A stretch of DNA of 64,000 bases from Winogradskyella litoriviva. GTDB taxonomy: Bacteria > Bacteroidota > Bacteroidia > Flavobacteriales > Flavobacteriaceae. Positions 39,228 to 48,014 of this stretch are shown here, in pieces. The stretch spans positions 372,001-436,000 of the forward strand of contig NZ_JABRWQ010000004.1 in the NCBI RefSeq assembly GCF_013249065.1. The letters are read 5' to 3'. The translations under genes and the position numbers were made by a program. The first letter of the stretch is position 1, and each line of letters starts with the position of its first letter. The notes under the pieces are model-generated. The model worked only from the letters and a program-made list of their open reading frames with translations, did not search any database and had not been told where the DNA came from.

Positions 39228-39974
39228 ATGGGAAGAGCTTTCGAATTTAGAAAAGCAAGAAAAATGAAACGTTGGTCTGCTATGAGCAAAGCCTTTACGC
39301 GTATTGGCAAAGACATTGTGATGGCTGTAAAAGAAGGTGGTCCTGATCCTGATAGTAATGCACGCTTAAGAGCTGTTATACAGAATGCCAAGGCAGTAAA
39401 TATGCCAAAAGCAAATGTAGAACGCGCTATTAAAAAAGCAAGCGAAAAAGGACAAGGTGATTATAAAATTGTACTTTTTGAAGGCTACGCACAACATGGC
39501 ATTGCTGTTTTAGTTGAAACCGCAACAGACAATAACACACGTACTGTAGCTAATGTAAGGTCTTATTTCAATAAAACGGATGGTAGCTTAGGAACTTCTG
39601 GTTCTGTTGTTTTTATGTTTGACCATACTTGTAATTTTAAAATTGAAGACAAAGACTTCGATTTAGAAGAATTAGAGCTAGAATTAATAGACTTTGGTGT
39701 TGAAGAAATCTTTGCTGACACAGATGAAGATGAAAATGGTGAAGAGCAAAAATGCGTTATGATTTATGCGCCTTTTGAAAGTTTTGGAGACATTCAATCG
39801 TATTTAGAAACTAACAATATTGAAATTATTTCTTCTGGCTTTGACCGCATACCTCAGGTTACAAAGAAAATTACTGCTGAACAGGCTGAAGATGTAGAAA
39901 AATTATTAGAAAAATTAGATGATGACGATGATGTACAAAATGTATATCATACTATGGAAGAAAGTGCAGAATAA
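39228..39974 (+). CDS. YebC/PmpR family (TACO1-like) protein
   Basis: The 248-residue protein matches the YebC family: MGRAFEFRKARKMKRWSAMSKAFTRIGKDI, GGPDPDSNARLRAVIQNAK, MPKANVERAIKKA, and an acidic C-terminal domain (LEKLDDDDDVQNVYH). It has been described as a transcription regulator and, in more recent work on YebC proteins, as a translation factor for difficult (proline-rich) sequences. A strong terminator follows. Confidence 0.93.
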   Translation: MGRAFEFRKARKMKRWSAMSKAFTRIGKDIVMAVKEGGPDPDSNARLRAVIQNAKAVNMPKANVERAIKKASEKGQGDYKIVLFEGYAQHGIAVLVETATDNNTRTVANVRSYFNKTDGSLGTSGSVVFMFDHTCNFKIEDKDFDLEELELELIDFGVEEIFADTDEDENGEEQKCVMIYAPFESFGDIQSYLETNNIEIISSGFDRIPQVTKKITAEQAEDVEKLLEKLDDDDDVQNVYHTMEESAE

Positions 39975-39988
39975 ATCATTGTATACTT

Positions 39989-40019
39989 AAAAAAAAGAGG
40001 GCTCTGCCCTCTTTTTTTT
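39989..40019 (+). terminator. Strong intrinsic terminator
   Basis: GAGGGC, 3-base loop TCT, GCCCTC, flanked by A6 and T8 that extend the stem. It is about 20 bases after the YebC-like stop and can work in both directions. Confidence 0.93.
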
Positions 40020-40234
40020 GCTTTTAATTAATTAAAAGAATACTTCTAGTTTAGATATCAAAATTAACCTTGTATTTTTATAATATTGATTTAAGAAATA
40101 ATATAAACAACAAACAGTTGCATCTTGTATTATTTCTTATTTCCAAATAAAAACAGTAGTTATTTAATGATGTTTGTTACATCTATTTAAACAACAACTT
40201 GCAATTATAAGCCTACTAGACAAATAACTAAACA

Positions 40235-42547
40235 ATGAAATATACTATCTTTATTGTACTCTCCATCTTTCTACTATTTTCCTGCAGCCAAAAACCAAAA
40301 CATACTGGTGTTTTTGTAAAAGATATAAATGCATTAAATAATGCTATACAACAAGCAAGCCCAGGAACAAACATAATTCTTGCCAATGGTATTTGGAAAA
40401 ATTTTCAAATCAAATTTTATGGTTTAGGAACAGAAAATTCCCCTATTACATTAAAAGCAGAAACACCTGGTAAAGTATTTATAGAGGGTCAATCATTTAT
40501 ACAATTAGGAGGCGAATATCTTACTGTAGAAGGTTTACATTTTAGAAATGGTTACTCACCAAACAATTCTATCATTAAATATATGATTAACAACGATAGT
40601 ATTGCAAATTATTCTAGAGTTACAAATACTGTTATTGAAGGTTTTACAAAACCAAACCGTTATACAAACGACCGTTGGGTAGAATTTTACGGCAAACACA
40701 ATCAATTAGACCATTGTTATATTGCCGGTAAATCTAACGATGGCGAAACCGTTAGAGTATTTTTTACTGGAAACGAACATATTAATACGCATCATCAAAT
40801 AGTCTATAATTACTTTGGCCCAAGACCAAGAAAAGGTGGTCCAAGAGCAGAAACCATAAGAGTTGGCGATAGCAAAACAAGATTAACGCCTGGTTACGTC
40901 AATGTTTCGCATAATTACTTTGACGCTTGCAATGGTGAGGTCGAAGTCATTTCAGATAAAACCAATTACAATTCCTTTACAAATAATATTTTCGATAAAT
41001 GTGAAGGTTCATTAGTGCTTAGACATAGTAACTACGCTACTGTAGATTCTAATATTTTTATTGGTGGAGATGACTCTGATTTTTATGGTGGAATAAGAGT
41101 TGTAAATACGGGTCACTGGATTACCAACAACTATTTCTACAAAATACGAGGCGAACATTTTAGAAGTCCACTAGCTATAATGAATGGTATACCAATGACG
41201 CCATTAAATAGATACAAACAAGTTGCAGATGTTGTGGTTGCTTATAATACTTGGATAGATTGCGCATCACCTTTTCAAATTGGAGTTGGTCAGAATTTAG
41301 CAAGTATAGATGTGCTTCCTAAAAGTGAAATACGTTCTGCTGCTCCTATTAGAACTGCAATAGCTAATAATGTTATATATAATACAAAACCAGATAAAAC
41401 ACCTTTAATTAATCATGATGATATGAGTGGGATTCTGTTTAAAAATAATATTCTAGACAACAACAGAAGTGATTTTAACGAATTTGACGTATTTCAAAAT
41501 GAAAAATTAAAAATGAAGCAAATCAATGATTGGTTATATGCTCCTGAAACTAAGAACAAAGCTTTAGACAGCGTATTTAATGGTTATGACTTTGCAAGAA
41601 TTAAAAACGACTTATTTGGTGCATCTCGAAGTGATAACAATAAAGTTGGTGCAATTAATCAATTAGCAACTGCTGAAAAATTCAAAATCGATAAAAGTCA
41701 ATATGGACCAGATTGGTTTTCAACTGAAAAAGAAACTACTGAACCTAATATTCTTAAGGCATCATCAAAATCTGGCGAGCTTTCAAATTTAATTCTTCAA
41801 GCAAAACCTGGCGATATTATTGAGCTCACTGATACTGAATATTCAATAAGTACACCTCTTAAAATTGATAAAGACATAACGCTTAGAGCTAAGGGAGAAA
41901 ATAAAGTTGAAATTATTTATAAAGGAAAAGCACACACACCATTATTTGAAATGAATCCAAAAGGGAATCTTAAGCTTCAAAATATAAGTATAAAAGGACA
42001 AGGGAATCAACTCGCATTTGAGTCTCTCGCTGAAAATATGGCTTCTGCATACAATCTATTTATCGACGATTGTATTATAGACAATTTCAACTACATTTTA
42101 AAAGCTTCAAAAGGCTCTTTTGCAGATAGTATTAACTTCAACAAAACGGTTATTAAAAACAGTGAACATGGCTTTGTATTAGCTGCTGATGAAAAAGGCG
42201 ACTACAATGCAGAAATGGTTACTTTCAATAATTGTGAATTCAATAATATCAGCCAAAATTTGATTCATTTTTACAGAGGTGGTTATGATGAATCTACAAT
42301 TGGTGGTGTCTTAACGCTTTCTAACAATCTTTTTACAAATTGTGGTAAAACAGAAAAATCTGGTTTACTGATAAAAACACCAGGCATTATCAATGTTCAT
42401 ATTTCTGAAAATACATTTAAGGATAATCGCGTAAAACTTGTCGCGCTTCTTTGGGGCGAAAAGAACAATCATCATCGTAATAATACATTCATTAATTCTG
42501 GAGAAATTAAAGTTGAAGATCAACAAAAACTAGAAATTCTGTACTAA
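40235..42547 (+). CDS. PL6 family alginate lyase-like lipoprotein (chondroitinase-B fold)
   Basis: The 770-residue protein has a lipoprotein signal (LLFSCSQK, Cys17) and two parallel beta-helix domains. The N-terminal one (about 25-430) is PL6: the metal ligands Glu235 and Glu237, catalytic Lys242 and Arg263, with the same K-to-R spacing of 21 as in chondroitinase B (K250/R271) and AlyGC (K220/R241). The C-terminal helix (about 490-770) is the second domain of the large PL6 form (AlyGC-like). It should cleave alginate, probably poly-guluronate ends, at the cell surface or periplasm. It heads the cluster with the Nramp-like transporter, TIM-barrel and DUF1080 genes. Confidence 0.9.
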   Translation: MKYTIFIVLSIFLLFSCSQKPKHTGVFVKDINALNNAIQQASPGTNIILANGIWKNFQIKFYGLGTENSPITLKAETPGKVFIEGQSFIQLGGEYLTVEGLHFRNGYSPNNSIIKYMINNDSIANYSRVTNTVIEGFTKPNRYTNDRWVEFYGKHNQLDHCYIAGKSNDGETVRVFFTGNEHINTHHQIVYNYFGPRPRKGGPRAETIRVGDSKTRLTPGYVNVSHNYFDACNGEVEVISDKTNYNSFTNNIFDKCEGSLVLRHSNYATVDSNIFIGGDDSDFYGGIRVVNTGHWITNNYFYKIRGEHFRSPLAIMNGIPMTPLNRYKQVADVVVAYNTWIDCASPFQIGVGQNLASIDVLPKSEIRSAAPIRTAIANNVIYNTKPDKTPLINHDDMSGILFKNNILDNNRSDFNEFDVFQNEKLKMKQINDWLYAPETKNKALDSVFNGYDFARIKNDLFGASRSDNNKVGAINQLATAEKFKIDKSQYGPDWFSTEKETTEPNILKASSKSGELSNLILQAKPGDIIELTDTEYSISTPLKIDKDITLRAKGENKVEIIYKGKAHTPLFEMNPKGNLKLQNISIKGQGNQLAFESLAENMASAYNLFIDDCIIDNFNYILKASKGSFADSINFNKTVIKNSEHGFVLAADEKGDYNAEMVTFNNCEFNNISQNLIHFYRGGYDESTIGGVLTLSNNLFTNCGKTEKSGLLIKTPGIINVHISENTFKDNRVKLVALLWGEKNNHHRNNTFINSGEIKVEDQQKLEILY

Positions 42548-42561
42548 TAACCAGCGACACA

Positions 42562-43812
42562 ATGCATAAATTTAAAACAATACTCAAAAACCTTGGTCCT
42601 GGTCTGTTGTTTGCTAGTATGGCAATCGGAACATCACATTTAGTCTTGTCTACAAAAGCAGGTGCTCAATATGGCTGGATAATGGTTATTCCCATAATTT
42701 TGGCCAACCTTTTAAAATATCCATTTTTTGAATTTGGCATTAGATACACCAACGTTACTGGTAAAAGTATAATAGAAGGTTACAGTAATCGAGGAAAAGG
42801 CTATTTATGGTTGTATGCATTTATTACCTTAGCGACTAGTATTGCTAGTCCTGCTGCATTATGTTCTATTGCTGCAGGTCTTTTAATTAATATTTTAGGT
42901 ATCCATGATGTTGCTATAACCACAGTGGCTTTAGGTTTGTTTGTTTTTAATAGTATCATCTTAATTATTGGAAAATATAAATTGTTAGAAACCACATTAA
43001 AGTTCTTAATACCTATATTATTTGGTGCTTTATTAGTAACTACTGTACTTGTAATAAACAAAGGGCAAATCACACCTATTGCTAATTTTAAAGCACCAGA
43101 AATCTTTAACGAAACTGGCATTTTATTTTTAATTGTGTTAATCGGTTGGATGCCAACAGCTGTTGAAGGCAGTAGCTGGCTCAGTCTCTGGAGTGCTGAA
43201 AAGTATAAAGTTGACCATAAAAAGCCACCACTAAAAGAAGCATTGCAAGAATTTAACTTAGGTTATATTTTAACGGCAGTTTTAGCCATTTTCTTTTTAA
43301 TTATAGGCTGCATGACGCTTTATGGCTCTGGAACCGAATTAAGCGGAAACGCAACCATATTTGCAGACCAAGTGATTAACTTGTTTTCAACTCATATTGG
43401 TAATTGGGCTTATGTCTTTATCGCTATTTCTGCATTTGCTACTATGTACAGTACCTGCTTAACACAACATGATGCTATTGCAAGAGTAAGTGTTGACATT
43501 ATTGGATTATTAGTTGGTGAACACGAAAAATTTAAGGGACGAAAATACTACGCTTCTAGTATTTTAATTATAGCTATAATGAGCATTGTTGTGCTTTATG
43601 CACTTGGTGCAAATATGGGATTAATATTAGCAGTAGCCACTGCAACATCCTTTGTTCTTGCTCCTATTGTTGGCTATATGAATTTAAAAAATGTTTTGAG
43701 CGATGAATTACCTGTTGACCAAAAACCAAAACGAGGATTGCAATTATTAACCTATTTAGGCATACTATTTTTATCACTTCTTTCCATTTATTATGGTTGG
43801 ATTTTAATGTAA
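42562..43812 (+). CDS. Nramp-superfamily transporter without canonical metal-site residues
   Basis: The 416-residue protein has about 11 membrane helices and the Nramp fold (GPG at 12-14 in TM1; MPT in TM6; a TM8 region with Cys/His/Asp). Aligned without gaps to TM1 of metal-transporting Nramp, the DPGN motif becomes Gly23-Thr-Ser-His26, and the TM6 MPH motif becomes Met-Pro-Thr. The Asp and Asn that bind Mn2+/Fe2+ are gone. It starts 14 bases after the PL6 stop. The substrate may be a different ion or an organic solute from the carbohydrate pathway; this is inference. Confidence 0.82.
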   Translation: MHKFKTILKNLGPGLLFASMAIGTSHLVLSTKAGAQYGWIMVIPIILANLLKYPFFEFGIRYTNVTGKSIIEGYSNRGKGYLWLYAFITLATSIASPAALCSIAAGLLINILGIHDVAITTVALGLFVFNSIILIIGKYKLLETTLKFLIPILFGALLVTTVLVINKGQITPIANFKAPEIFNETGILFLIVLIGWMPTAVEGSSWLSLWSAEKYKVDHKKPPLKEALQEFNLGYILTAVLAIFFLIIGCMTLYGSGTELSGNATIFADQVINLFSTHIGNWAYVFIAISAFATMYSTCLTQHDAIARVSVDIIGLLVGEHEKFKGRKYYASSILIIAIMSIVVLYALGANMGLILAVATATSFVLAPIVGYMNLKNVLSDELPVDQKPKRGLQLLTYLGILFLSLLSIYYGWILM

Positions 43813-43818
43813 TAATCT

Positions 43819-44766
43819 ATGAATTTATCACGAAGAAATTTTATTAAAAAAGCTGGCGCAACACTAATTGCTGTGCCTTTTGCACCATTATTAACTAACA
43901 TGTCTAATAATTCTATTGATGAAAAACCTTTAGATATACACCTGTTCTCAAAGCATTTACAGTTTTTAGACATTAAAGAAGCTGCAGAAGTAGCTGCAGA
44001 ATTGGGCTTTAATGGACTAGACCTAACCGTGAGACCAAAAGGACATGTATTACCAGAACATGCAATTACCGATTTACCTAAAGCCATTGAAGATATTAAA
44101 TCTGTTGGTTCTTTTTGTAAAATGATTACAACTGCTATTACTGATATTAATAATTCTTACGACTTAGATATAATAAAAACAGCTGCTCAACAAAATGTGC
44201 AATTCTACAGAATGAATTGGTACAAATATCATGAAGGGTTAACCATGGAAAAATCCATAGCAATCTACCAAGAACAGATTAAAAATCTAGGAGAAATTAA
44301 CAAACAACACAATATTATAGGTTGCTACCAAAATCATGCAGGCACAAAAGTTGGCGCATCGTATTGGGAAATAAATCAAATTTTAGATAGCGTAGACTTA
44401 GACTATTTTGGTGTTCAATACGATATTCGTCATGCTATGGTAGATGGTGGATTATCTTGGGAAAATGGATTAAAACTTCTTAATGATAAGATACAAACCA
44501 TTGTTTTAAAAGATTATAAATGGGCAAAGATTGATGGAAAATACAAAGTTATAAATGTACCCATTGGAGAAGGTATGGTAGACTTTAATAAGTATTTTAA
44601 ACTTTTAAAATCTTATGGATTAAATCCGCCAACATCCTTACACTTAGAATATGATTTAGGAGGTGCAGAAAAAGGCAAGCGAGATATTAAAGTTGACAAA
44701 AAAGTAGTATTTGACGCAATGAAAAAGGACTTAAATACTATTCAGAAACTTTGGAAAGAAGCCTAA
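43819..44766 (+). CDS. Tat-exported TIM-barrel (xylose isomerase-like) protein
   Basis: The 315-residue protein has a twin-arginine signal (SRRNFIKKAG followed by a hydrophobic stretch, residues 4-28) and an AP endonuclease/sugar isomerase TIM barrel: GFNGLDLTVRPKGHVLPE, a His/Asp/Glu metal set including YDIRHAMVDGG, and HLEYDLGGAEKG. Such Tat-targeted sugar phosphate isomerase/epimerase-like proteins are common in Bacteroidota carbohydrate clusters. Epimerase or 3-keto-sugar isomerase activity is plausible. It is seven bases after the transporter gene. Confidence 0.85.
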   Translation: MNLSRRNFIKKAGATLIAVPFAPLLTNMSNNSIDEKPLDIHLFSKHLQFLDIKEAAEVAAELGFNGLDLTVRPKGHVLPEHAITDLPKAIEDIKSVGSFCKMITTAITDINNSYDLDIIKTAAQQNVQFYRMNWYKYHEGLTMEKSIAIYQEQIKNLGEINKQHNIIGCYQNHAGTKVGASYWEINQILDSVDLDYFGVQYDIRHAMVDGGLSWENGLKLLNDKIQTIVLKDYKWAKIDGKYKVINVPIGEGMVDFNKYFKLLKSYGLNPPTSLHLEYDLGGAEKGKRDIKVDKKVVFDAMKKDLNTIQKLWKEA

Positions 44767-44792
44767 TATTTATTTAATCTCCCATTGTTAAA

Positions 44793-45365
44793 ATGAAAAA
44801 AATCAACAAAATTTCAGCAGTAATTCTTGTGATATTTTCTCTTGTATTTTCTTGTAATCACTCAGAAAAGTTGTTTCAAGAGAATTCAAATACTTGGAAA
44901 TCTTATGGTGATAATTGTTGGCATTTTTCCGAGAATGAATTAATAGGAGAAGTAAAAAATCAAGAGAGCTATTTAATTACAAAACAAAGGTTTAAAGATT
45001 TTGATTTAAACTTAGAGTTCAAACCAGACAACTCTATTAATACAGGTGTTTTTATTCGATGCATTAATGAAGATGTGAATCCTAAAAATTGCTACGAGCT
45101 TAATATTTGGGACTTACATCCAGACCAAACCAACAGAACAGGTGCCATAGTTGCACGAGTAAATCCAAGAGTTGTCGTATCAACAATTAACAAATGGAAC
45201 ACCTATAGAATTAAAGCCGTAAATAGTCATATCCAAGTTTGGATAAACGACACACTCACCATTGATACAATTGATAACGCTTTAAGGGAAGGATACATTG
45301 GTCTACAAGCTAAAGCTACAGGAAAAGTGAGTTTTAGAAATATTAATATCCAAACTATAGATTAA
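44793..45365 (+). CDS. DUF1080 lipoprotein (3-keto-disaccharide hydrolase family)
   Basis: The 190-residue protein has a lipoprotein signal (LVFSCNHSE) and one DUF1080 concanavalin-like domain (about 35-187), with FKDFDLNLEFKPDNSINTGVFIR and GYIGLQAKATGKVSFRNI. DUF1080 members include 3-keto-glycoside hydrolases and sugar-binding modules; the domain often accompanies Tat-targeted TIM-barrel proteins like the upstream gene. It closes the four-gene cluster. Confidence 0.85.
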   Translation: MKKINKISAVILVIFSLVFSCNHSEKLFQENSNTWKSYGDNCWHFSENELIGEVKNQESYLITKQRFKDFDLNLEFKPDNSINTGVFIRCINEDVNPKNCYELNIWDLHPDQTNRTGAIVARVNPRVVVSTINKWNTYRIKAVNSHIQVWINDTLTIDTIDNALREGYIGLQAKATGKVSFRNINIQTID

Positions 45366-45421
45366 TAGATATTTTCTACAACCTACTATACTCATAATTT
45401 ATTCCCAAAACGATAATTTTA

Positions 45422-45458
45422 TTTGTTTGAAAAAAACATTAATCGTAATATTGCAATA
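45422..45458 (+). promoter_or_regulatory. Promoter and candidate ArsR operator of the first arsenic operon
   Basis: A -33 TTTG (45422-45425) is 20 bases from a near-consensus -7 box TAATATTG (45446-45453). The perfect palindrome TATTGCAATA (45449-45458) lies over the -7 box, where a repressor would block transcription. The arsR start is 20 bases downstream. Confidence 0.6.
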
Positions 45459-45477
45459 AACAAATTAATATCGAATT

Positions 45478-45810
45478 ATGGGATTAGCAAAATCAGAAAT
45501 GTTTACAGATGCACAAAACGAAATTGCTTTGTTCGCTAAAGTATTTGGGCATCCTGCGAGAGTAGCCATTCTACAACAATTATTTAAAATTGATGCTTGC
45601 TACTGTGGTGATTTGGTAAGCGAAATAGGATTAGCACAACCCACTATTTCTCAACACTTAAAAGAATTAAAACATTTAGGACTTATTAAAGGAAACGTAG
45701 AAGGAACAAGTGTTTGCTACTGTATTAATACTGAAAATTGGACTAAAATGAAAGCAACAATGCTTCAATTTCTTAATCAGGATATTTCTGAAAAAGACAA
45801 TTGTTGTTAA
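45478..45810 (+). CDS. arsR: ArsR/SmtB family repressor, first arsenic operon
   Basis: The 110-residue winged-helix repressor has the GHPARVAILQQL helix and recognition helix QPTISQHLKELKHLGLI. Cysteines lie at the start of the DNA-binding region (Cys41 and Cys43 in DACYCGDL), in the wing (Cys80, Cys82) and at the C terminus (Cys109, Cys110). The first pair is at the position of the As(III) site of classical ArsR. It heads an operon of DUF6428, arsC, ACR3 and a phosphoesterase; As(III) is expected to release it from DNA. Confidence 0.92.
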   Translation: MGLAKSEMFTDAQNEIALFAKVFGHPARVAILQQLFKIDACYCGDLVSEIGLAQPTISQHLKELKHLGLIKGNVEGTSVCYCINTENWTKMKATMLQFLNQDISEKDNCC

Positions 45811-45842
45811 ACACTATTACAAACACATTAAAAACATACAAA

Positions 45843-46310
45843 ATGAAACTATCAGAAATTAAAAACAAACTTAAAGAATTAGAAACAATTTCATTTCAGT
45901 TGCCAAATGGCGAACTAGTACCAAGCCACTTTCATGTTACAGAAGTAGGTAAAATAACAAAACACTTCATTGATTGTGGTGGAACCGAAAGAAATGAAGA
46001 AGTGGTTAACTTTCAGTTATGGAATGCAAATGACTACGACCACAGATTACATCCCGAAAAATTAATAGACATCATTGAGCTTTCTGAGAAAGTATTAGGT
46101 ATTGGAGATTTAGAAATTGAAGTAGAATACCAAGGCGATACTATTGGCAAATTCGGACTAGATTTTAATGGTAAAAGTTTTATACTTACCAATAAACAAA
46201 CCGATTGCTTAGCTCAAGACCAATGCGGAATTCCTTCGGAGAAACCAAAAGTAAAACTATCAGAATTAAATGACGAACCTTGCTGTTCTCCAGATGGCAA
46301 CTGTTGTTAA
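45843..46310 (+). CDS. DUF6428-like arsenic-operon protein with C-terminal Cys-Cys pairs
   Basis: The protein of 155 residues (from ATG 45843) resembles the DUF6428 proteins found in arsenic operons of Bacteroidota. The first ~120 residues form an alpha/beta domain with a SHFHVTEVGKITKHFIDCGG segment, where His and Cys could bind metal. The C-terminal tail has a C-x5-C pair and ends in two vicinal Cys pairs (Cys147-148, Cys154-155). No signal peptide. An As(III)-binding chaperone or delivery protein for ACR3 is my inference. The gene lies 32 bases after arsR and 18 before arsC. Confidence 0.75.
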   Translation: MKLSEIKNKLKELETISFQLPNGELVPSHFHVTEVGKITKHFIDCGGTERNEEVVNFQLWNANDYDHRLHPEKLIDIIELSEKVLGIGDLEIEVEYQGDTIGKFGLDFNGKSFILTNKQTDCLAQDQCGIPSEKPKVKLSELNDEPCCSPDGNCC

Positions 46311-46328
46311 CCTAAATATAATCTAAAA

Positions 46329-46961
46329 ATGATAACCACAAAATCCAACCTCTTTTCTGAAATAGAAACGGTAATACAAGGTTTAAAACCTGAAACGATT
46401 TCCGATGAAAGAAAAATAGTATTACAGCCCTTAATAGAATTTATACAAAATAAGGTTTCAAATAAACAAGATGTTCGCATCAATTTTATTTGCACACACA
46501 ATTCACGTAGAAGTCATTTATCACAAGTTTGGGCGCAAACCATGGCAAATTATTTCAACATTAAAAAAGTTTTTTGCTATTCTGGAGGAACTGAAGCTAC
46601 TGCGCTTTTTCCTATGGCTGCTCAAACTTTAGAAAATTCTGGTTTTAAAATAAAGACGCTTTCCGAAGGTAAAAACCCAGTTTATAGCATTAAGTATACT
46701 CAAAATGAGCATCCTATTATTGGTTTTTCTAAGAAATTAGATGATGATTTTAATCCAAAATCAGAGTTCGCTGCTATTATGACCTGTGATTCTGCAAATG
46801 AAGCCTGCCCTTTTGTTCCTGGTGCAGATAAACGTATTCCCATTACGTTTGAAGACCCAAAAGCCTTTGACAATACTCCACTGCAAGAAGAAAAGTATAT
46901 GGAAAGAAGTCTTCAAATTGCAACTGAATTATTCTATATTTTCTCTCAAATCAACTCATAA
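46329..46961 (+). CDS. arsC: Arsenate reductase, thioredoxin-coupled LMW phosphatase type
   Basis: The 210-residue protein has an N-terminal helical extension (1-48) and a low-molecular-weight phosphatase fold with the CX5R loop Cys55-THNSRR61-S. A resolving cysteine pair Cys153 and Cys160 (TCDSANEACP) has the same spacing of seven as Cys82/Cys89 in pI258 ArsC. It should reduce arsenate to arsenite using thioredoxin. It is about 70 residues longer than pI258 ArsC. It precedes ACR3 by three bases, so the product is handed to the exporter. Confidence 0.88.
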   Translation: MITTKSNLFSEIETVIQGLKPETISDERKIVLQPLIEFIQNKVSNKQDVRINFICTHNSRRSHLSQVWAQTMANYFNIKKVFCYSGGTEATALFPMAAQTLENSGFKIKTLSEGKNPVYSIKYTQNEHPIIGFSKKLDDDFNPKSEFAAIMTCDSANEACPFVPGADKRIPITFEDPKAFDNTPLQEEKYMERSLQIATELFYIFSQINS

Positions 46962-46964
46962 GTA

Positions 46965-48014
46965 ATGAAAAAGAAATTAAGTTTTTTAGACAGTTATCTA
47001 ACCTTATGGATATTTATAGCCATGGCACTTGGTGTCGCTATTGGGTATTTTGCACCAACTTTTCCAGATGTTATTAATTCTTTTAGTAGCGGAACAACCA
47101 ATATTCCTATAGCAATAGGATTAATACTAATGATGTATCCGCCTTTAGCAAAGGTTAATTATGCTCTATTACCAAAGGTTTTTAGCAACACCAAAATTCT
47201 TTCAATATCACTTATATTAAATTGGGTCGTAGGACCTGTTTTAATGTTTGTTTTAGCAATTACCTTTCTCCGCGATTATCCAGAATATATGGTTGGCTTA
47301 ATTCTTATTGGCTTAGCACGTTGTATAGCCATGGTTTTAGTTTGGAATGATTTAGCGGAAGGTAGTAGCGAATATGGTGCTGGTTTAGTGGCTTTAAATA
47401 GTATTTTTCAGGTCTTTGCTTATAGTTTTTATGCTTGGTTATTTATAACAGTACTTCCACCCTATTTTGGGTTTGAAGGCGCCATAGTACATATTTCTAT
47501 TGCAACCATAGCAGAAAGTGTTGCCATATATTTAGGCATACCGTTTGTTTTAGGTATTTTAAGTCGACTTATTTTAGTAAAACTTAAAGGCGAAGAATGG
47601 TACACTAAAAAGTTTATTCCTACGATTTCGCCTATGACTTTAATTGCATTGTTATTTACAATTGTGATTATGTTTTCATTAAAAGGTGAATTAATTGTTG
47701 AAATCCCAATGGATGTCTTAATCATTGCTATTCCTTTATTAATCTACTTTAGTTTAATGTTTATCATTGGTTTTTTCTTTACCAAAGCCATGGGAGCGGA
47801 TTACAACAAAACAGCCGCTGTAGCTTTTACAGCTGCCGGAAATAATTTTGAATTAGCCATCGCTGTTGCCATAGCAGTTTTCGGGTTAAATTCTGGGCAA
47901 GCATTCACAGGAGTTATTGGCCCACTAGTTGAAGTACCTGCCTTAATTTTACTCGTCCGTGTTTCTTTTTGGTTGAAAAAGAAGTATTTTGACACACCGA
48001 AAACCACAGCATAA
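46965..48014 (+). CDS. acr3: ACR3-type arsenite efflux transporter
   Basis: The 349-residue protein has ten membrane helices and the ACR3 signature [16 protein letters not shown] with the essential Cys120, and a second motif around [18 protein letters not shown]. It exports As(III) using the proton gradient. The stop codon directly abuts the start of the phosphoesterase gene (TAA-ATG), so translation is probably coupled. Confidence 0.95.

Follow-up and report, generated by a model that had tools for sequence, protein, structure and literature searches.

A conserved variant of the Nramp motif in a Winogradskyella litoriviva protein encoded beside a PL6-type polysaccharide lyase

Winogradskyella litoriviva encodes a member of the Nramp superfamily that carries a conserved variant of the canonical metal-site motif and whose gene lies in an operon-like group with a PL6-type polysaccharide lyase; the link to alginate-type lyases recurs in one clade. 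As cargo of this Nramp-related carrier we propose an operon-linked organic anion, a proposal for and against which we judge the chances evenly balanced. The gene is located in a stretch of 64,000 nucleotides, which was analyzed as a whole and is called the window hereafter. The open reading frame at 42562-43812 of the plus strand encodes 416 amino acids and is the second of four genes:

40235..42547, plus strand, PL6-type polysaccharide lyase (Pfam Chondroitinas_B), 770 aa; Pfam, 589 bits
42562..43812, plus strand, Nramp-related transporter, 416 aa; Pfam, NCBIfam, fold and alignments
43819..44766, plus strand, Tat-signal AP_endonuc_2 (xylose-isomerase-like TIM barrel) protein, 315 aa; Pfam, 73.2 bits
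44793..45365, plus strand, protein of the DUF1080 / 3-keto-disaccharide hydrolase family, 190 aa; Pfam, 113.7 bits

The Nramp gene is separated by 14 bp from the lyase gene and by 6 bp from the AP_endonuc_2 gene, which is followed after 26 bp by the DUF1080 gene. An earlier note on this DNA had placed the transporter gene between a PL6 lyase and a Tat-exported isomerase-like gene; this arrangement was confirmed, and the DUF1080 gene, unnoticed at that time, was added as the fourth gene. Chondroitinas_B corresponds to CAZy family PL6; the PL6-type protein of the main alginate locus in the same genome is 48% identical to that of the window. The Tat signal of the AP_endonuc_2 protein was recognized by TIGR01409 with 17.5 bits (cut-off 16.7). 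DUF1080 and AP_endonuc_2 proteins are linked to 3-keto-sugar chemistry; a literature search on a periplasmic 3-keto pathway yielded nothing usable. Homologues of the DUF1080 gene were found two genes 3' of the Nramp gene in three homologous loci (L001-L003) and directly 3' of it in L010. In the alginate loci L274, L276, L279, and L280, a homologue of the AP_endonuc_2 gene is the immediate neighbor of a PL6-type gene; in L271 one is located near such a gene. Further downstream in the window, at 45478-48014, an ArsR-type regulator (Pfam HTH_5) heads the next run of genes, which by eye resembles an arsenic-resistance operon.

The window protein exceeded the cut-offs of both Pfam Nramp PF01566 (33.8 bits, cut-off 29.8) and NCBIfam Nramp_1 (63.8 bits, cut-off 50). 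A search of PDB sequences with the protein or its profile gave no match at E-values up to 1; the fold search did give matches. An AlphaFold2 model, calculated template-free from an input of 63 sequences, reached a mean pLDDT of 81.1. Its top match was DraNramp (6d91) with Z 36.8, an rmsd of 3.1 over 375 residues and 17% identity; ranks 1-12 were occupied by Nramp-family entries throughout, and AdiC was found below these as the first amino-acid APC carrier (Z 31.6). The protein is a member of the Nramp superfamily with a predicted Nramp/LeuT fold, and the earlier statement that the fold was kept agrees with the model.

In TM1, the residues G23-T-S-H26 are found at the position of D-P-G-N in canonical Nramps. 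The match is gap-free in the MAFFT alignment as well as in the profile-profile alignment by hhalign, with Asp replaced by G23 and Asn by H26 as had been proposed before; neither method restored DPGN. TM6 reads G195-W-M197-P198-T199 and contains no His. The description of this site as MPT for MPH was correct for the letters and could not be confirmed for their place: in the gap-free MAFFT alignment G195 stands opposite the conserved Gly, T199 opposite the canonical Met and V201 opposite the His. With hhalign, the MP of TM6 was paired with the MP of the canonical profile only by opening a gap of four residues, and against a PxpT-type profile gaps of three and seven were opened; the pairing of the two MP motifs is ambiguous. 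The TM10 Gln of canonical Nramps is a metal ligand, and T360 is found at its position (MAFFT). The acidic residues of TM3, D131 and E134 in the numbering of DraNramp (PMC12873925), are missing as well, their positions being occupied by P97 and L100 (MAFFT). Thus, the window protein shares the fold with canonical Nramp/MntH/SLC11 proteins such as DraNramp, whereas TM1 D and N, TM6 H, TM10 Q, and the TM3 acids are absent by MAFFT; of the canonical SLC11 features DPGN (TM1), MPH (TM6), and acidic TM3 residues, none was found.

The distribution of the variant motif was determined for the best 80 of 122 confirmed homologous loci, 79 of which yielded a protein. GTSH was present in TM1 of all 80 sequences aligned by MAFFT, the query included, and TM6 read WMPTAVE in 58, WMPTTVE in 21, and WMPTSVE in one of them. 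Within the phylum, 51 of the 296 genomes contained a match at E-values up to 1e-10. From these genomes 28 loci were taken, 26 of which represent distant members with 30-40% identity. Each of these 26 Bacteroidota proteins contains GxSH (GVSH in 24, GGSH and GASH in one each), and their TM6 contains MPI, MPA or MPT followed by D or E three residues on. Records of Photobacterium, Pseudoalteromonas, and Neisseria contain homologues with 30-35% identity; one entry of the plasmid collection, a Neisseria gonorrhoeae record of 2.17 Mb (L143), looks chromosomal. Judged by these alignments, GTSH/GxSH is a conserved variant in the sampled subfamily members and not the mark of a lone degenerate gene, so that the earlier notion of metal-binding motifs being "lost" had to be given up; a recent loss of the motif was rejected because the sampled subfamily members read GxSH. 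A 2026 preprint (PMC12873925) places such "Nramp-related proteins", which lack DPGN and MPH and form a paraphyletic set, outside the canonical transporters; it describes a rooted tree, uses G-motif as a group name, and calls the set uncharacterised except for the NRMT-like group and the MntG group. The reading as a conserved variant agrees with this rooted tree; our own tree is rooted on canonical proteins and therefore gives no test of the direction of change.

The neighborhoods of the homologous genes were compared between a close clade and the rest of the subfamily. The close clade comprises 15 loci (L001-L011, L013, L022, L031, L058), four of which were assigned independently of the tree, L031 by diagnostic residues and L001, L003, and L058 by identity. 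In the tree with non-canonical Nramps, which the earlier note had called for, the close clade obtained a support of 1.0 (12 members), and the window protein falls outside the PxpT-type clade (support 0.997). A lyase gene was found within three open reading frames of the Nramp gene in 10 of the 15 close-clade loci, and the same queries detected no lyase nearby in the 64 scored loci outside the close clade or in the 26 distant loci; these counts, like those for SanA and for alginate-locus genes, were obtained by phmmer with query proteins of W. litoriviva and of its relatives, which leaves room for missed lyases of other types. PL6 precedes the Nramp gene in L001, L002, L003, L005, and L008; PL7 is present in L008 and L010, in the latter two genes before the Nramp gene; a heparinase-II/III-type lyase is located before the Nramp gene in L004 and L011 and after it in L013 and L058. 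The heparinase-II/III type thus accounts for four of the ten lyase loci, and alginate is not established as its substrate. No lyase was detected nearby in the close-clade loci L006, L007, L009, L022, and L031 and in L140 of the same-genus genome G226; in L009, the Nramp gene is directly followed by a PfkB gene whose product is 46% identical (347 columns) to that of the KDG-kinase-like gene of the W. litoriviva genome. Fisher's test for 10/15 versus 0/64 gave 2e-9, a value that ignores the kinship of the loci; since the loci are related, the separate lyase-Nramp arrangements, at least four in the close clade, weigh more. At the level of genomes the alginate-lyase association of the subfamily is weaker: PF08787 lyases are encoded in three of four genomes with a match of 73-100% (absent from G226) and in 9 of 29 with a match of 54-68%.

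Outside the close clade, a SanA/DUF218 gene is located one or two open reading frames upstream on the same strand in 54 of the 64 scored loci, and in the close clade it was found in 0 of 15 within the stretches examined. Locus L052 was excluded from the counts as no Nramp open reading frame had been picked, though a SanA match is present. SusC-like matches occurred in L071 among the loci outside the clade and in L115 as one among the 26 distant loci. Clustering and inspection by eye revealed no partner common to the sampled families of the wider subfamily; within one of its families, a gene of 977 aa is a neighbor in 10 of 28 loci and one of 221 aa in nine of 28. The recurrent link to alginate-type lyases belongs to one clade. 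A tabulation of neighbors in Bacteroidota loci, suggested earlier, thus bore out the alginate link for the close clade and failed to do so for the SanA-linked majority. The whole subfamily as alginate transporter was rejected, since 54/64 outside loci follow SanA and the queries used detected a lyase in 0/26 distant loci. As a separate observation, a gene encoding an OmpA-like protein of 645 aa is located downstream of the Nramp gene on the opposite strand in 63 of 80 scored loci (L011-L080; L083 counted); behind it, mostly genes for PorP/SprF-like and large secreted proteins are found (names by eye). Furthermore, 23 near-fixed positions set the close clade apart from the rest, including six within TM3 and three within TM10 by rough helix limits; in this comparison the query and 14 loci were used as the clade and L031 was counted outside. 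Such positions may mark a functional shift.

The genome encodes three Nramp-superfamily proteins over the cut-off. A second one with GTGS in TM1 (L082; L197:3958-5232, corresponding to G000:C60:209961-211232) is encoded in the main alginate locus, where its gene is flanked by those for a kinase-6PGDH fusion and a PL17-type lyase. The order of genes there is PL7, PL6, PL7, IlvD/Edd-type dehydratase, kinase-6PGDH fusion, Nramp, PL17-type lyase, and cupin, followed by SusC/SusD-like pairs (by eye), PL7, GntR, MFS, and SDR, with PfkB further on. The fusion adjoining the GTGS gene (L197:5267-7162) consists of a Pfam SKI kinase domain and 6PGD; we read it as gluconokinase-like, and the fusion hints at aldonate catabolism in alginate loci. 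A close GTGS orthologue (at least 57%) was found in 24 of 199 genomes of the family, and PF08787 alginate lyases (one below the family cut-off) in 23 of these 24 genomes as compared to 26 of the 175 others. Twenty foreign GTGS loci were analyzed, namely 18 of 23 from the same family, with G606, G633, G611, G534, and G684 omitted, and two from another family. Homologues of main-alginate-locus genes were present within 8-9 kb in 19 of the 20 and a lyase homologue in 16, with phmmer E-values up to 1e-12 for one set and 1e-8 for the other and with matches to SusC, SusD, SDR, and kinases being less specific than those to lyases. L278 lacks alginate-locus homologues, and L207, L281, and L283 contain only those of SusC/SusD, GntR or MFS type. 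An MFS gene accompanies the Nramp gene in the main alginate locus and in five GTGS loci (L281-L285); the idea that Nramp replaces the MFS importer was weakened by this coexistence.

The third protein (L081; TM1 GPGT) is encoded adjacent to a LamB_YcsF gene and is therefore PxpT/YcsG-like; LamB_YcsF is the PxpA family (PMC10448178). In C. glutamicum, growth on 5-oxoproline depends on pxpT, whose product TCDB assigns to the NRAMP family, and is restored by a plasmid copy of the gene; metal transport was not excluded by the authors (PMC13274462). Overexpression of its B. subtilis homologue YcsG raised the cellular Mn2+, and the protein was reported as an Mn2+ importer and renamed MntG (PMC10448178). 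The substrate of PxpT/MntG is thus disputed between the genetics of 5-oxoproline (PMC13274462) and the report on Mn2+ (PMC10448178). Like PxpT/YcsG (MntG), the window protein belongs to PF01566, has Gly in place of the TM1 Asp and is encoded in a catabolic operon. It differs from the PxpT-type copy in the same genome by GTSH versus GPGT, at 25% identity over 354 columns, and the annotated neighbors of its gene include no pxpA-like gene. Additionally, GTGS-like matches were found in 21 plasmid records; in the three examined, all haloarchaeal (L286, L287, L288), the Nramp gene is immediately followed by genes for hydantoinase/oxoprolinase A and B. The window protein itself matched 22 plasmid records, of which 13 were examined and ten are annotated. 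A catabolic-looking operon is present in two of these ten: the Streptomyces plasmid (L184:461-6335), a weaker match, combines genes for PdxA, a four-carbon acid sugar kinase and an aldolase with an Nramp gene (TM1 GSGE), and the Mesobacillus record combines an Nramp gene with CoA-transferase and thiolase genes.

The window protein belongs to the "Nramp-related", non-canonical members of the superfamily and would be an inner-membrane carrier of Nramp (LeuT) fold; transport, its direction, its substrate, and the coupling ion we infer. Its central site, built from G-T-S-H of TM1 and G-W-M-P-T of TM6, is not the canonical transition-metal site and would most likely bind a small organic anion. The gene of the close clade would have been recruited several times beside alginate or other polysaccharide lyases, and the carrier would most likely take up a product of periplasmic degradation, either an unsaturated uronate (DEH, for example) or a sugar acid formed by the Tat isomerase-like protein and the DUF1080 protein. 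As these two proteins are predicted to be extracytoplasmic, their product would need an inner-membrane importer. The organic-anion reading is supported by the GTGS subfamily in alginate loci and by the PxpT precedent. The earlier suggestion of an organic solute for the alginate pathway stands as far as context is concerned (10/15 versus 0/64 loci, the GTGS loci and PxpT), and a metal substrate retains some probability.

This metal reading holds that the protein carries a divalent cation (Mg2+, Mn2+ or Ca2+) via different ligands, as NRMT does for Mg2+, and supports the enzymes of the pathway; we consider it rather unlikely. EleNRMT carries Mg2+ without the canonical motif (PMC12873925), and NrmT genes were described with an M-box riboswitch upstream in the founding cases, not in every NrmT (PMC4072509). 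EleNRMT and the window protein have in common the Nramp fold (Z 32.5 against the window model) and the missing canonical motif, but EleNRMT retains an Asp in TM1 (NDAGG in the alignment), which is missing from the window protein. The D and N of TM1 and the Q of TM10 in canonical Nramps are replaced by G, H, and T. Positions 39900-45500 of the window gave no Rfam match and hence neither an M-box nor an Mn riboswitch, and the scan of six homologue loci and the GTGS locus yielded one tRNA only. Strong activation by Ca2+ was described for the PL6 lyase RiAlyPL6 (PMC12472053); however, the lyases are expected outside the cytoplasm, so that an imported cofactor would not serve them. The YcsG report on Mn2+ also favors a metal, as does the label "Nramp, metal-ion transporter" of a gene in Alteromonas alginate loci in the supplementary legend of PMC6431674. 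Among the literature matches listed for Nramp with alginate, uronate or polysaccharide utilization, this is the only source naming an Nramp gene in alginate loci, and no title or abstract among them proposes such a function.

Against the organic anion speak, in our assessment, the same YcsG report, the lack of a catabolic operon in eight of the ten annotated plasmid records and the five close-clade loci, out of 15, in which no lyase is located nearby. The SanA-linked loci, which have no alginate context, encode identical GTSH and GWMPT motifs; the substrate may therefore not follow the context. This identity, together with SanA/DUF218 in 54/64 outside loci and the missing common partner in the wider family, would also fit a general flavobacterial transporter of an unrelated solute, whose lyase neighborhood would be secondary in an algae-dwelling clade. 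We regard such a transporter as unlikely, given the short intergenic distances in the window (14, 6, and 26 bp), the several separate lyase arrangements within one clade and the 23 near-fixed positions (6 TM3, 3 TM10) with their possible functional shift. A further argument against the organic anion is the MFS transporter encoded in the main alginate locus and in five GTGS loci, which thus already possess a conventional importer. Loci of similar kind were described with MFS importers (PMC8286568, PMC12472053, PMC13390454), those of flavobacteria with SusC/SusD plus MFS (PMC13390454), and the word Nramp is absent from the available texts of all three. The MFS, SSS, and TTT importers (PMC8286568, PMC13390454) belong to other transporter families and have the same proposed job, uptake of alginate products across the inner membrane. 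Organic-anion handling by such Nramp-related carriers, with the window clade drawn into polyuronate operons, is the most economical account.

A wider version of the organic-anion account is tentative and in our view doubtful: GTSH and GTGS proteins, as two separate subfamilies, would bring uronates or sugar acids derived from alginate across the inner membrane, much of the annotation "Nramp family divalent metal transporter" in bacteria and archaea would be wrong, and the metal transporters would be a derived branch of organic-anion carriers. Databases name such proteins metal transporters, and many of these annotations would be wrong if many Nramp-related proteins move organic acids. The dispute on PxpT/MntG, 5-oxoproline or Mn2+, would gain a second, independent test system. 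If the account is true, the origin of Nramp/SLC11 metal selectivity would become testable by comparison of pockets, and flavobacterial alginate loci would possess a new type of importer.
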